A stretch of DNA of 41,903 nt from Phycisphaerae bacterium (GTDB lineage: Bacteria; Planctomycetota; Phycisphaerae; Sedimentisphaerales; Anaerohalosphaeraceae), in assembly GCA_014859965.1 (NCBI GenBank), contig JACZKQ010000165.1, positions 1 to 41,903 on the forward strand, in the 5' to 3' direction. Below, piece by piece: positions 3,844 through 40,034 of the stretch. The notes under the pieces were generated by a model that had not been told where the DNA came from, searched no databases, and saw only the letters and a list, made by a program, of their open reading frames with translations. A program made the position numbers and the translations under genes. Every line of letters begins with the position of its first letter. Within the stretch, counting starts at the first letter, position 1.

Positions 3844-4094
3844 GCAGGGCAAACGCATTCTCCTGATAACTCGCTGCGCAGGCGTCGCTGGAAGGACCGA
3901 GCAAAACCGCTCGGGGCCCCAGTCAATCATGTCCATAACTGGACACCCGGAATAATGAAAAGTGCGTACCGCATGCTATTTTCAGAGCAGAGGCCAAAAT
4001 CCCCCCCCCGGCGAAAAGATGCTCCCAATTTTGGCCTCTGCCCAAACGGTTTTGCTCTCCAAAGTCGCCGCGGGCCGGGTTTTGGGATGCGGAC
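3844..4094. repeat. Palindromic intergenic repeat, copy A (interrupted)
   Basis: This stretch matches the reverse complement of 36537-36716. The core runs from GAGCAAAACCG (3899-3909) to CGGTTTTGCTC (4047-4057). Inner arms AGAGGCCAAAAT and ATTTTGGCCTCT would fold into a hairpin of about 90 bases once the 68-bp insertion at 3923-3990 is removed. A left flanking module begins GCAGGGCAAACGCATT (3844). The right flank ends TTTTGGGATGCGGAC. No coding potential was recognised, and the remaining bases up to fliS at 4198 contain nothing clear. Confidence 0.85.
3923..3990 (+). mobile_element. 68-bp insertion element, copy 1
   Basis: It is identical over 68 bases to 6573-6640, and identity extends to the flanking CCCCAG and AG. 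It interrupts the palindromic repeat. The inverted copy at 36.6 kb reads straight through CCCCAGAG at the matching point, giving an empty site. It has two hairpins, TGTCCA/TGGACA around loop TAAC near the left end and TGAAAA/TTTTCA near the right end. There is no reading frame and no clear target duplication. The mobile nature is inferred from two occupied sites and the empty sites. Confidence 0.7.
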
Positions 4095-4197
4095 GAGCAT
4101 AGAGTGCGACAGCCCTGGCTCCACATGCCCCTTGCAGGAACAATGTCACAGACGCTGTACGGCCGCACTGAGGGGTTTTCGGGGGCATTCAAGAGGA

Positions 4198-4533
4198 CTA
4201 ATCGCCGGCGAGGGTTTTCCAGCTTTGATTGATCTCTTCGAGGAGGGCTACGGCTTCACGGAGCATCTGCGGGTTGTGCTCGGTGTTGGCCTTGGTGAGA
4301 TGGCGGCTGAGGAAATTGTAGATTCGGTTGAGGTTTTTGGCGACGTTTGAGCCGCCTTCGAGGTCGAGCGAGGAGTTCAGTTCGATAATAATGTCCTGTG
4401 CGGCCTTTATGCCGCTGCTGGCGGCCGGGACGTTGTCGGCGTCGAGTTCACGGATCGCCTGTGTGAGATACATCATAGCCTTCTCATACAGTATCGTGAT
4501 GATCTTATCCGTATGTACGCTCAGTCCGGGCAT
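4198..4533 (-). CDS. fliS: Flagellar export chaperone FliS
   Basis: FliS is the cytosolic chaperone that binds flagellin C-termini before export. The 111-residue, almost wholly helical protein shows family landmarks: ITILYEKAMMYLTQAI near the N-terminus (the L-Y-D/E-x-A helix), KAQDIIIELNSSLDLEGGSNVAKNLNRIYNF in the middle and LEEINQSWKTL at the C-terminus. I chose ATG 4533, which sits 9 bases after GGAG. An in-frame TTG at 4539 would be too close to that site. It stands alone, with no flagellin or FliD neighbour in the window. The chemotaxis operon at 17-24 kb suggests a motile organism. Confidence 0.88.
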   Translation of the reverse strand: MPGLSVHTDKIITILYEKAMMYLTQAIRELDADNVPAASSGIKAAQDIIIELNSSLDLEGGSNVAKNLNRIYNFLSRHLTKANTEHNPQMLREAVALLEEINQSWKTLAGD

Positions 4534-5121
4534 TTCCAATTACTCCATGCACACTATCATACTAAACTATACAAAACAATCGACGCGGCGACGGCCAAAG
4601 ACCAGAAAATAATTGTCTTGGCCGCAGACGGGGAGGCGGATACAGGAAAGGCCTATAATACTACTGGCAACGCGATTGTTTTGGCGGGCGGGCGTCACCT
4701 GAAAAAAGGCTGCTGGGGCGCGGCGCGGCCGATTAAAGGAAACGGCGTGTTTGGGCCGATTATAAGGACTGACCTCTTACAGTTTACTGCCCACGACTTT
4801 CGCATTGGGAATTGAATCAACGCCCTGGAGCGCTGATAAACAAAAGCGAACAAAACAAGCGGAAGCGTGGGCGGTTTATGCGCGGGGTGTGCTGGTTCAG
4901 CGAGAATGTGTACAGGTCCGCGGATGTTCAGGGACACGCTGCGGATCAGCAGGAACTTGACTATGCGGAAGCTGCTTACCTTGCTCTAAACCCCTGTGAC
5001 TACGCTTGAGCGGGCAATCAGCGAGCGGCGATCTATGGACAGGCAATGTCTACACAAAAAATAGAGCAGTCCCTTTTTTAATTACCCCCCCGAAATTAGT
5101 GGTTTTTTTGTGGCGGATTTG
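4534..5121. other. Gene-poor stretch upstream of fliS
   Basis: Short open frames here have no family character and no good ribosome sites. Two direct copies of GGCCGATTA lie at 4727-4735 and 4754-4762. The second resembles a sigma-28 -10 (GCCGATTA) with TAAA 17 bases upstream, two more than ideal. A TATAAT at 4653 lacks a good -35. No gene is called. Confidence 0.4.
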
Positions 5122-5149
5122 TTGTGGTGCTGGGGGCGGGTGGTATAAT
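5122..5149 (+). promoter_or_regulatory. Promoter of the membrane-protein cluster
   Basis: TTGTGG at 5122-5127 and TATAAT at 5144-5149 have a 16-base spacer, about 60 bases before the ATG at 5211. It is probably the promoter for the 5.2-7.0 kb genes. Confidence 0.6.
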
Positions 5150-5210
5150 GAAGGCGACGGTGCGGGTCGGGAGCGGATCATAGGCATGCTTGTGGTGAAG
5201 GGGATGTGAA

Positions 5211-6218
5211 ATGGCCGGGAACGCTCAAAGGAGAAGGGGGCAGAAGGTCTGGACGGGGATTGCTGTCTTCTTGACAGTGATCATTCTCACAAGCGTGATC
5301 TGTTTGGGTCTGGTGCGAAGGCCCATACCGCGGGGGACGGCCGCAGGCTTCTGGTACGCTGCAGCGGGTGTGAGGATCGCCCCGTGTCTTGGTTCGGACC
5401 TTGGTGGTCACCCGGCTGTTCACATCGGCGATCAGGAATGCGTTTATGAAGTACGCGGTATTGACTTCTGGGCAACATACTCCGTGCCAACCAGCGAGGT
5501 TAGGGATACTTTCGACAAGGCACGCACAGCCTTGGAAAGACGGGTCGCTGAAGGCGGTTCAGACTGGTGGCCTACCTTGGGATACGTCCTGTGGCTTAAC
5601 GATCCAAATACAGATCGAACGTCGCTGGAAGCGCTGGTCACCAAGATGGAGGAAGGCTTCTGCGAGATGCGTCGTCAGAGGGGCAGCAGCGGGAGCGATG
5701 GCATCGCACTGAGCCAACACGGGCTTGAGTGGCAAATGGCCCAGGCCAAATGGGATTGGGCGAGTTTTGTTTTTGAGTCTCTGTATCTTGGCGGACTCGT
5801 ATGGTTCGCGTTGTGGCCGGGCATAAAAGGCAAAGGTGTCAGGTCATGGGCATGGCGATTGGGGCTGCTGCCGGTCCTGTTGATGCTGCCATGCTGGATG
5901 GGCTACGGTACCCTCGCGGTGGACATGCGTCACCCTATGCCGGGTATGCGGATTTTGTATCCGTGGCTTTTGATCTCGTTGCCGCCCGGACATATGAATG
6001 CGGCCGACATACTGATCGTGCAGCACATCCCGCCGATTCTGGCACCTTTGTCATACGGTGGACAGTGGCATGTCTCGGTGTTGTCGATGTTAGCCGAATA
6101 TGGCGGAGAGCACACGATGTGGGGCCCGACATACATGATTGGCGCTGGTGCAGCACTGGCGGTGTGCGTCCTGGCCGTTGCGACTGTTGGTAGACGATTA
6201 CAGACGCAGTCCCTTTAA
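5211..6218 (+). CDS. Hypothetical multi-pass membrane protein
   Basis: I do not recognise a family for this 335-residue protein. It begins with a positively charged stretch and a hydrophobic helix (about residues 17-37). A soluble extracytoplasmic region of about 150 residues follows, with a helical Glu/Arg-rich part. The C-terminal half holds several hydrophobic segments (about 190-205, 215-235, 245-265, 310-330). The start is supported by AAGGGG before ATG 5211 and an upstream promoter. The next gene begins 4 bases after its stop, so they are probably co-transcribed. The sequence of hydrophobic helices suggests an inner-membrane location. No catalytic motif was seen. Confidence 0.7.
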   Translation: MAGNAQRRRGQKVWTGIAVFLTVIILTSVICLGLVRRPIPRGTAAGFWYAAAGVRIAPCLGSDLGGHPAVHIGDQECVYEVRGIDFWATYSVPTSEVRDTFDKARTALERRVAEGGSDWWPTLGYVLWLNDPNTDRTSLEALVTKMEEGFCEMRRQRGSSGSDGIALSQHGLEWQMAQAKWDWASFVFESLYLGGLVWFALWPGIKGKGVRSWAWRLGLLPVLLMLPCWMGYGTLAVDMRHPMPGMRILYPWLLISLPPGHMNAADILIVQHIPPILAPLSYGGQWHVSVLSMLAEYGGEHTMWGPTYMIGAGAALAVCVLAVATVGRRLQTQSL

Positions 6219-6222
6219 TTAA

Positions 6223-7034
6223 ATGCGCAGAATGAAGAAAACACGTGTAATTCTAATTATATGTGGTGTCAGCTTGGCAATGGCGGTGCTCTGCACAATT
6301 CTTGCATGGACATTACATGTTTGGTTGCGGAAGGAGTCCCCTCCTCCGTATTGGTATGTTATGCCGGAGTCTGAGTACGTGCGGTTTGATGATCGCGGGA
6401 AAGATGCGGCAGCCAGATGGCTGCAGAGCGAGCCAAGCAGAGCATCCTTGATGGAACTTAATGAAAAGAGCCGTTATTCCCATGATGAGTGGCTGGCTCG
6501 GGGGCGAAGGATAAAACATCTTGAGGACTCGTTGATTGAATTGTACGTGGACGCAGATTGCGGCATCCCCAGTCAATCATGTCCATAACTGGACACCCGG
6601 AATAATGAAAAGTGCGTACCGCATGCTATTTTCAGAGCAGAGAAAGTATTCTGGACGCGCTCTTTGCAGTGGGCACGGCTAAGAGCGTCAATGTTTTAGT
6701 AGAGTCATTTCGAGAAGACGAACTGTCTGACGGCCAGAAGAATTGGATAGCGGCAATTATCGGCAAGAATGGCGACACCAGTGTAGGGCCGATCTTGATG
6801 AGCCTGATTGAGGAGATTCAACTTGAAGAAGCTTCGCCTGATTCCGACAGAGTTCTGAAATTGAATCTGCTCAGTGCGTTAATGCCACACGCGCCAGAGA
6901 AGACAAAAGAGTATTTGCTCAGCATGCAGAAGGACCCCGGCATGCAGCGGCATCAAAAGACAATAGAATACTTTTTGGAGACCATTGAAAACGCGAGAAA
7001 AGTGCATGGGGTCAGCGCCGCACCGGCCTCATGA
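6223..7034 (+). pseudogene. Membrane-anchored helical protein broken by 68-bp insertion
   Basis: The frame starting at 6223 has an N-terminal membrane anchor (about residues 9-33) and runs 116 codons before entering the 68-bp element, where TAA at 6586-6588 ends it. Beyond the element the frame resumes, offset by two, and runs to 7034. Deleting exactly 6573-6640 joins them into one uninterrupted 247-codon frame, reading GIP-R-ESILDALFAVG across the junction. The C-terminal part is helical with HEAT-like spacing (VGTAKSVNVLVESF, DTSVGPILMSLIEE), a weak assignment. GTG at 6612 could restart translation, giving a 140-residue soluble fragment. Function is unknown. Confidence 0.8.
6573..6640 (+). 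mobile_element. 68-bp insertion element, copy 2 (inside a gene)
   Basis: It is identical to 3923-3990, in the same orientation and at the same CCCCAG^AG target. Hairpin 1 is TGTCCA 6580-6585 with TGGACA 6590-6595. Hairpin 2 is TGAAAA 6606-6611 with TTTTCA 6629-6634. At 68 bases it shifts the host frame and brings in a TAA. The length and boundaries are fixed by frame restoration here and by the empty site at 36.6 kb. Site preference, lack of target duplication and subterminal hairpins resemble small IS200/IS605-derived elements, but no transposase end was recognised. Confidence 0.7.
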
Positions 7035-31931: not shown

Positions 31932-31956
31932 CTGACAATCTGAAATGGAGAACATA

Positions 31957-32079
31957 ATGGACTACACATACGATGAAATCGCCGGGATGATCGACCACTC
32001 GCTGCTGAACCCGACGACCACCGCTGACGCCATGGAAAAGGGCATCGACCTCGCCCTGCAATACAAGACTGCCAGCTAA
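31957..32079 (+). pseudogene. Truncated deoC 5' fragment (40 codons)
   Basis: The 40-codon frame MDYTYDEIAGMIDHSLLNPT... aligns with the start of deoC at 33389. It ends with TAA exactly where deoC continues TASVCI. The first 60 bases differ at a single position; the next 60 are clearly diverged. It keeps a ribosome site (GGAG) and a promoter, and stops 12 bases before the beta-propeller gene. It is either a leftover of duplication or a short leader ORF. The fragment cannot code for an aldolase, since the catalytic barrel is missing. Confidence 0.85.
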
Positions 32080-33345: not shown

Positions 33346-33388
33346 GAACTGCCACCAGTTACCATACTGCTGACTTGCGGAGAATACA

Positions 33389-34075
33389 ATGGACTACACA
33401 TACGATGACATCGCCGGGATGATCGACCACTCGCTGCTGAACCCGACGCTCACCACCGATGCCCTGGAACAGGGCATCGCGCTCGCCCTGAAATACCGCA
33501 CCGCCAGCGTCTGCATCATGCCGTATTACCTCAAGCGCTGTGCGCAACTCCTCGCCGGCAGCACCGTCCACCCCAGCACCGTCATCGGCTTTCCCCACGG
33601 CGGCCATACCACCGCCGTCAAACTCGCCGAAGCCCAGCAGGCGATGGACGACGGCGGCCGCGAACTCGACATGGTCGTCAACATCAGCAAAGCCCTCAGC
33701 GGCGACTGGCCGTACGTCCGCGACGACATCAAAGCCGTCGTCGACGCCGCCCACGCCCGCGACTGCAAAGTCAAGGTCATCTTCGAAAACTGCTACCTCA
33801 CCGACGCCCAAAAAATCAAACTCTGCGAAATCTGCGGCGAACTCAACGCCGACTGGGTCAAGACCTCCACAGGTTATGGAACCAGCGGCGCCACAATGGA
33901 AGACCTCGCCCTCATGCGAAAACACGCCCCCGCCCACGTCCAGGTCAAGGCCGCCGGCGGCGTCCGCGATCTCGACAAACTCCTCCAGGTCCGGGCCCTG
34001 GGCGTCACCCGCGCCGGAGCCACCGCAACCGCCGCGATTCTCGACGAATGCAAACGCCGGCTGGCCCGGGTGTAG
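33389..34075 (+). CDS. deoC: Deoxyribose-phosphate aldolase
   Basis: DeoC cleaves 2-deoxyribose 5-phosphate to glyceraldehyde 3-phosphate and acetaldehyde in deoxynucleoside catabolism. The 228-residue length is typical. The Schiff-base Lys lies in WVKTSTGYG near 163. VKVIFENCYL near 132, MIDHSLLNPT near the start and the VKAAGGVRDL phosphate-binding segment near 195 are all present. ATG 33389 has GGAG upstream. Codon use is strongly C-ending. The start of the gene is duplicated 1.4 kb upstream. Confidence 0.95.
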   Translation: MDYTYDDIAGMIDHSLLNPTLTTDALEQGIALALKYRTASVCIMPYYLKRCAQLLAGSTVHPSTVIGFPHGGHTTAVKLAEAQQAMDDGGRELDMVVNISKALSGDWPYVRDDIKAVVDAAHARDCKVKVIFENCYLTDAQKIKLCEICGELNADWVKTSTGYGTSGATMEDLALMRKHAPAHVQVKAAGGVRDLDKLLQVRALGVTRAGATATAAILDECKRRLARV

Positions 34076-36457: not shown

Positions 36458-36729
36458 GGCGCCGCCTGCCCAGCGAGGTATACAGGAGAATGCGTTTGCC
36501 ATACTCGGCACCTCAGGGCGGCCGCATTCTCCAGATGTCCGCATCCCAAACCCAACCTGCGGCGACAATGGAGAGCAAAACCGGTTGGGCAGAGGCCAAA
36601 ATCAGGAGCATCTGTTCGCCGGGGGGGAATTCTGGGCTCTGGGGCCCCGACCGGTTTTGCTCGGTCCGGCGGCGCCGGCTGCCCAGCGAGTTATGAGGAA
36701 AATGCGTTTGCCCTGCTCGGCACCTCCCC
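36458..36729. repeat. Palindromic intergenic repeat, copy B (uninterrupted)
   Basis: This is the inverted copy of 3844-4094. The core is a 90-base imperfect palindrome from GAGCAAAACCGGT (36573-36585) to ACCGGTTTTGCTC (36650-36662), a perfect 13-base outer stem. Two direct copies of a module of about 55 bases flank it (36458-36512 and 36667-36729), each with TGCCCAGCGAG and AATGCGTTTGCC. Copy B continues directly through CCCCAGAG (minus strand) where copy A holds the 68-bp insertion. The rest of 36304-36733 shows no gene. Confidence 0.85.
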
Positions 36730-39218: not shown

Positions 39219-39298
39219 AACCGCCGTATCGTCCGTCCACACCACCGGCGCATGCGCATGATGTAACAGTACACGCATGCTCTGGAAGAATTAAAAAA

Positions 39299-39654
39299 GT
39301 TACCCCGGCAGCAGCAGCGGTGAGCTGCCCTGCCGGGATAGTGTGATGGAAAAGAAAGAAAAGAGTCAAATTAAGAAAATAGGTGCGTCCTTGCCCCAGT
39401 CGAATCTTCTTTTCCACATCGCCGCAGCCGGCGAAGAAAGGTTATCCCGGCAGCAGCAGCGGTGAGCTGCCCTGCCGGGACAGTGTGATGGAAAAGAAAG
39501 AAAAGAGTCAATTTGAAAAATCATGTGCATCCCCGCCTCTATCGAATTCTCTTTTCCATACCGCCGCAGCCGGCGAAAAAAAGGTTATCCCGGCAGTAAC
39601 AGCGGTGAGCTGGCTGCCGGGATAGTGTGATGGAAAAGAAAGAAAAGAGTCAAT
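39299..39654. repeat. 142-bp tandem repeat array with conserved hairpins
   Basis: Units begin at 39299, 39441 and 39583, exactly 142 bases apart; the third is cut after about 72 bases. Each opens GTTA(T/C)CCCGGCAG, then a CAGC-GGTGA-GCTG inner stem-loop, then CTGCCGGG closing the outer stem. A purine-rich tract GATGGAAAAGAAAGAAAAG follows, and, in complete units, a second hairpin TCGCCG-CAGC-CGGCGA or close variant. In the third unit the internal loop differs (TAA for CAG) while both stems are kept. Located between convergent genes. Confidence 0.85.
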
Positions 39655-40034
39655 TGTATCCTGCCCCGTATACATCACATGCCGCCCCGCCGACGAACCT
39701 GTCAATCCAGAATCCAATCGGCCAAGAAAGATTTACGTCCACCCCATTACACTGTACGTTTCGCGCCGTTGGACTTCCCGGGATGATTCAATCGGTTCCC
39801 CTCAATCAGAACCCCCCGTGTGCAACAGCCACTTATGTTGTCGGTAGGATGCGCACACAACTTAAAAAAAAGGAGAAAAAACTTGCGTCGATACCCCGCA
39901 ACTTCTGCATCGCCGTTTAGCACAGCGCGCGCACCCATGATCCCCCGCCATGAAACGCCCCCGAAAACGCGTCTGATATCTTTACATCCCATCACACGCA
40001 AAAACACCATCCCCCCGCAAGGGCGCCGCAATCG
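39655..40034. other. Gene-free stretch after the tandem array
   Basis: No coding region, promoter or hairpin of note was found. An A-rich tract with AAGGAG lies at about 39864-39880 but no supported start follows. Confidence 0.4.

Follow-up and report, generated by a model that had tools for sequence, protein, structure and literature searches.

The 41,903-nucleotide contig JACZKQ010000165.1 of a Phycisphaerae bacterium (assembly GCA_014859965.1), analysed over its whole length and referred to here as the window, carries two copies of a 68-bp element that we hold with high confidence to be a non-autonomous mini-element of an insertion sequence (IS) of the IS110 family, whose DEDD recombinases are guided by a bridge RNA (seekRNA). 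RNA-guided mobilisation in trans of the IS110 type is strongly supported by the comparisons described below, and a full-length relative in the same genome very probably moves the mini-element. This reading is based on the ends that the two types of element share, on their common target nucleotide and orientation, on guide matches that are accompanied by covariation, and on a reading frame that one of the copies disrupts.

A stretch of 76 bp occurs twice in the window, letter-identical and on the same strand, at 3917-3992 and 6567-6642. With a single AG core included on the right, the element proper is 68 bp long (3923-3990 and 6573-6640, again the same letter for letter), and both copies are inserted at CCCCAG^AG. 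These copies and their shared orientation had been described in a first-pass annotation of the window, as had the position of copy 1 within an intergenic palindrome, the empty inverted sister of that palindrome at 36.6 kb, and two hairpins, TGTCCA/TGGACA and TGAAAA/TTTTCA; all of these are present in the sequence. Its statement that no target duplication occurs holds for ordinary duplications, yet AG (CAG if one more base is counted) is found at both ends of the inserted element, as is expected for an IS110 core. Rfam at gathering thresholds gave no match in the window, and the window has no tRNA association. The features of the window that concern the element are as follows.

3923..3990, plus strand: mini-element copy 1, 68 bp including one AG core at the right end
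6573..6640, plus strand: mini-element copy 2, 68 bp, identical to copy 1, inside a reading frame
3917..3922, plus strand: left target half CCCC and AG core of copy 1, matching the 3′ target guide GCCCCAG of the IS RNA
3989..3994, plus strand: AG core and right target half (AGAGGC) of copy 1, pairing with the 5′ target guide CCTCT
3930..3945, plus strand: left-end hairpin of copy 1, TGTCCA-taac-TGGACA (stems 3930-3935/3940-3945), covarying across mini-elements and full elements
3956..3961, plus strand: left subterminal inverted repeat of copy 1, TGAAAA
3979..3984, plus strand: right subterminal inverted repeat of copy 1, TTTTCA
3983..3990, plus strand: right donor end of copy 1, CAGAGCAG, the same letters as the 3′ donor guide of the IS RNA
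6580..6595, plus strand: left-end hairpin of copy 2
6633..6640, plus strand: right donor end of copy 2, CAGAGCAG
3894..4061, plus strand: intergenic palindromic repeat (the target), interrupted by copy 1
36514..36716, minus strand: inverted sister of that palindromic repeat, with an unfilled target site whose AG core is at 36640-36639

The source genome (G000) comprises 5.28 Mb in 199 contigs, the window being contig C48, and the genome-wide counts given here derive from searches and fetched stretches. Twelve full copies of the mini-element were found on 11 contigs with differing flanks; five are exact over 76 bp, one over 74 bp, three are 97-99% identical and three 84-88%. The 76-bp query returned nothing convincing beyond its own genome among 198 relatives, and the 68-bp sequence is therefore lineage-specific.

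The target repeat is REP-like (resembling repetitive extragenic palindromes), about 100 bp long (GGACCGAGCAAAACCGGTCGGGGCCCCAGAGGCCAAAAT...), and occurs in about 90 places in the genome, those in the window included. Empty sites read CGGTCGGGGCCCC-AG-AGGCCAAAAT and filled sites CGGTCGGGGCCCC-AG-[TCAATC...CAGAGC]-AG-AGGCCAAAAT; the empty sister in the window reads ...GGGGCCCC-AG-AGCCC... on the minus strand. Among the fetched palindrome sites 50 were empty, 10 held a mini-element and 6 the left end of a full-length IS, always at the same AG and in the same orientation, and the same repeat forms the right flank of five IS copies that lie at contig ends. The opposite arm of the palindrome was intact in 65 cases and filled in none; its right half is unchanged, with TTGGGC in the place where the used arm has GGGGCCCC. 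The shared AG site and the never-filled opposite arm indicate that both types of element read one site and that its left half decides the orientation. Tabulating the flanks of all copies, as the first-pass annotation had proposed, thus yields a shared target, with ten mini-elements at the same AG of the palindrome. Its description of the element as site- and orientation-specific, recently active and non-autonomous is likewise borne out, as far as sequence can tell, by the 12 copies, their common AG site and orientation, and the frame split by copy 2.

Copy 2 interrupts a reading frame on the plus strand (6223-7034) that encodes 247 amino acids once 6573-6640 are removed and that meets a stop after 121 amino acids with the insert in place. 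Only CCCCAGAG is shared between this site and the canonical target, so that copy 2 looks like an off-target insertion, and its identity with four other copies suggests that the insertion is recent. The occurrence of the element in 12 places on different contigs, together with the frame that closes without copy 2, speaks against an assembly artefact.

Besides the full copies, the genome has seven matches restricted to the first 49 bp of the mini-element and six restricted to its last 14 bp. On contig C94 a left and a right match, separated by about 1.5 kb, mark the two ends of a complete element.

G000:C94:66250-67752 (L027:1251-2753): complete IS, 1,503 bp

A larger element sharing the ends, which the first-pass annotation had suggested should be sought, does therefore exist, although its transposase is of the IS110 type and not Y1. 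About seven copies of this partner IS are present, some six of them split at contig ends, as would be expected of repeats that the assembly did not resolve. The 412-residue protein matches Pfam PF01548 (DEDD_Tnp_IS110, 1.7e-28) and PF02371 (Transposase_20, 6.5e-21) as well as the NCBIfam model 'IS110 family RNA-guided transposase' (5.9e-87), and six homologues (48-65% identity) all retain residues D12, E63, D99 and D102 and the C-terminal serine S299; a phmmer search by sequence found no relatives in the Protein Data Bank. Non-coding DNA amounts to 249 bp upstream of the transposase gene (tnp) and about 15 bp downstream of it. The IS has 7-bp subterminal repeats, TGAAAAG/CTTTTCA, of which the left one lies 34 bp inside the element.

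The upstream non-coding region of the IS reads as a putative bridge RNA (seekRNA). It aligns across homologues from several phyla and folds into a common structure of 24 pairs, 12 of which show two-sided changes; 92.6% of the alignment cells are paired, against 81.4% in shuffled and at most 57% in slid controls. The first loop is flanked by CCTCT, which pairs with the right target and core, and by GCCCCAG, which equals the left target and core, and the second loop carries CAGAGCAG, with which the IS and the mini-element both end on the right. Compared with the element's own DNA, the 3′ target guide GCCCCAG matches at 7/7 positions and the 3′ donor guide CAGAGCAG at 8/8. Over 13 loci the 3′ target guide agrees with the left flank at 86 of 91 positions (permuted 49.9 ± 4.2, p=1e-5), and over 11 loci the 3′ donor guide agrees with the right end at 74 of 77 (permuted 46.3 ± 4.0, p=1e-5); for the 5′ target guide and the right target, permutation over 11 loci gave p=0.0006-0.003. 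The guide order of the partner IS is IS1111-like, the top strand (right target) being paired by the 5′ guide and the bottom strand by the 3′ guide. The IS621-like assignment, in which the 5′ guide would equal the left target and the 3′ guide would pair with the right target, was rejected as the swapped-role controls were not significant, and a reading of the RNA as antisense was dropped because its guides would bear the core at their 5′ end, unlike those of IS621.

The mini-element itself is made up of letters 1-41 of a left end, a joint of about 15 bp and a 12-bp right end with CAGAGCAG. Its left part keeps the core-proximal bases, the hairpin and the TGAAAAG subterminal repeat, and it contains neither tnp nor the guide-RNA region. 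The element has its left hairpin in common with the IS110-type elements described here, and TGAAAA/TTTTCA corresponds to their subterminal inverted repeat; the hairpin and the CATGAAAA motif are shared between mini-elements and IS. Among 27 different stem pairs from mini-elements and IS, 4.37 of 5 positions are paired, compared with 3.07 when the stems are re-dealt (p=5e-5), and the retention of this pairing in elements without guide loops indicates that the hairpin probably matters for mobility.

Similar units were sought in a sample of the phylum Planctomycetota with a pattern consisting of the left motif, an CATGAAAA-like repeat and a TTTTC-N5-AG end. It matched the source genome (nine times in its strict form) and the genomes G316, G496, G284 and G466, while a reversed control pattern gave one match in 392 genomes, and a partner-genome search added mini-elements in G581 (Singulisphaera sp. 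GP187) and G200. Two further pattern matches (L261 and L262), which have no left hairpin, were taken as chance. The mini-elements elsewhere, independent of the present one and in part accompanied by related IS, have other sequences and other targets, again with AG at the junction. In G316 the right end of the mini-element, GAACCAG, equals both the right end and the donor guide of the resident IS; in G466 a pair of identical units has TTCACCGCAG^AGACGC in common; and in G496 three different units occupy one repeated target in one orientation. These three units (L259, L264 and L266; target AATATCGAACAAG^GAATAATGAATGTCGAAGGAT) have the fully compensated stems TTGC/GCAA, TCGC/GCGA and CCGC/GCGG. 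At a threshold of 1e-20 no close tnp homologue was found in G496 or G284. Two Deltaproteobacteria (G198 and G200; L220-L239) contain dozens of related 100-150 bp units that are arrayed head to tail and differ in their interior, where several unrelated sequences occur. One IS in these genomes has a target guide, CAAGACAG, that equals the right end of many of the units, which is a plausible reason for the head-to-tail arrangement.

A mechanism can be proposed in which the full-length IS (the C94 copy and about six others) would supply in trans both the recombinase and the RNA that it presumably produces. The donor loop of the RNA would recognise the abutted ends CAGAGC-AG-TCAAT, and its target loop would recognise GCCCC-AG-AGG in one arm of the palindrome. 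The recombinase would then exchange strands at the AG core, and such an exchange would lead to orientation-specific insertion with only the AG doubled. A circular intermediate with abutted ends would be involved, and the junction of the 68-bp circle would read CAGAGCAG-TCAATCATG.

Two subterminal hairpins, a fixed orientation and the lack of an ordinary target duplication would also fit an HUH (Y1) element of the IS200/IS605 type, in which a tyrosine transposase recognises the single-stranded hairpins and places the element 3′ of a short target, and the genome has one weak Y1_Tnp match (C81, L270). This relationship, which the first-pass annotation had entertained, was rejected as barely credible: the transposase encoded by the larger element, which has both its ends and its target in common with the mini-element, is a DEDD protein of the IS110 family; the sole Y1_Tnp match lies on a contig without these ends; IS110-type RNA guides fit, and covary with, both target and donor; and AG stands at either end. 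It is also highly improbable that the cassettes belong to another site-specific recombinase, integron-like or of the resolvase type, and share only their target with the IS. The head-to-tail arrays of the two deltaproteobacterial genomes do look cassette-like; in the source genome, however, the ends are shared with the IS, the GAACCAG end in G316 recurs in a resident IS and its donor guide, and the left hairpin and CATGAAAA motif occur in mini-elements and IS alike.

The remaining alternative is that decayed IS remnants, formed by internal deletion, were spread inside the palindromic repeat by gene conversion and not by movement of their own. Ten copies do occupy the same repeat at the same nucleotide, and recombination between repeats could spread the occupied state. 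Copy 2, however, interrupts a reading frame unrelated to the repeat, its site having no more than CCCCAGAG in common with the usual target, and removal of the 68 bp restores the frame; moreover, identical elements are flanked by different variants of the palindrome, and the mini-elements of other genomes differ in sequence and target yet again have AG at the junction. Gene conversion is therefore a very unlikely explanation.

Several observations weigh against the IS110 mini-element interpretation. The 5′ target guide of the resident IS matches over only 5 nt, and the right-side target match of copy 2 is weak (AGA). The guide windows for the 13- and 11-locus permutation tests were set by hand after inspection, a weakness that is offset in part by a test with automatically placed windows (p=5e-5 for the target and for the donor). 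The mini-element and the left end of the resident IS are only about 84% identical, so the mini-element either stems from a sister IS or has since diverged and is no fresh deletion of the IS now present. Finally, the sole fully assembled IS (C94) has a coding-looking, non-palindromic left flank (TGATACCCCAG) and a palindromic right flank (L027, 1-1250 and 2754 onward), and it may represent an IS-mediated rearrangement or an assembly chimera.

The partner IS resembles IS621 and ISEc21 of the IS110 family (PMC11208160, PMC11187229) in its DEDD/Transposase_20 recombinase, its long upstream non-coding region, an RNA with a target loop followed by a donor loop, a dinucleotide core and orientation-specific insertion; like IS621, it inserts into extragenic palindromes. 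It differs from them in its reversed guide order, an AG instead of a CT core and its 7-bp subterminal repeats, and the 68-bp element differs further in having neither recombinase nor RNA. IS621 and its relatives have a 5′-bottom, 3′-top guide order (Durrant et al., PMC11208160), whereas the order seen in the partner IS has been reported for IS1111 and the reverse for the IS110 member ISEc21 (Siddiquee et al., PMC11187229). With the IS1111 family (ISEc11, ISKpn4 and Coxiella IS1111) the partner shares the top-strand complement preceding the bottom-strand match and the targeting of a repeated palindrome, and its 7-bp subterminal inverted repeats recall those of IS1111 (at least 7 bp, in the range 7-17 bp), with the left one lying 34 bp inside the element; in IS1111, by contrast, the RNA region is downstream of tnp and tnp encodes 330-350 amino acids, compared with an upstream region and 412 amino acids in the partner. 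As a secondary novelty the partner IS combines a predicted upstream guide RNA, which is IS110-like, with the guide order reported for IS1111. Exceptions in RNA location have been noted, and further families within IS110 are expected (PMC11187229).

Laboratory mini-IS constructs have been made by placing cargo between ISEc21 ends (29 + 16 bp) or ISEc11 ends, and the ISEc21 version proved mobile with transposase and RNA each provided on its own (PMC11187229), which makes trans-mobilisation in nature credible. In both cases the ends suffice and recombinase and RNA act in trans (presumably so for the 68-bp element); the mini-IS are constructs, whereas the 68-bp element is natural and present in many genomic copies. 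Prokaryotic miniature inverted-repeat transposable elements (MITEs) such as MITEPsy1, QMITE1/2 and Correia (PMC10969869) are likewise short and geneless, have the ends of autonomous IS and are presumed to move in trans. Unlike classical MITEs, the 68-bp element has no terminal inverted repeats (only subterminal ones of 6-7 bp), no ordinary direct repeats (only the AG core) and a site specificity that is predicted to be RNA-guided. QMITE2 of Coxiella does not derive from IS1111 but serves it as a target (PMC5896051). Because IS110 elements have no terminal inverted repeats, on which MITE finders depend (PMC3852290), elements of the present kind will probably be missed.

The open-access papers searched contained no mini-element derived from an IS110 element, and novelty is provisional, subscription papers, bioRxiv and ISfinder lying outside that search. 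The first-pass annotation's suggestion of a new non-autonomous family stands to that extent. We lean, with some reserve, towards the broader view that mini-elements of the IS110 type are widespread and have been overlooked as a class. On this view they are non-autonomous units of 68-150 bp, each with a donor end and a left hairpin whose stem covaries; RNA acting in trans would direct them to a repeated target, and they would be able to form head-to-tail cassette arrays. Their parent IS would be a branch with an upstream guide RNA and an IS1111-type guide order. If the IS110 reading is right, the 68-bp element would be a natural counterpart of the laboratory mini-IS built for RNA-guided recombination, with sufficient ends of about 41 bp including the hairpin plus 12 bp. 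It would also show from nature what bridge-RNA recombinases require of a donor, how their insertions go off target (copy 2) and in which order their guides stand, and could explain some unannotated bacterial repeats and arrays.

Two other repeats were observed in the window: three 142-bp tandem repeats at 39295-39655, at least 86% alike over the parts compared, and a 130-bp direct repeat of 87% identity at 31947-32076 and 33379-33508, with a spacing of 1,432 bp.

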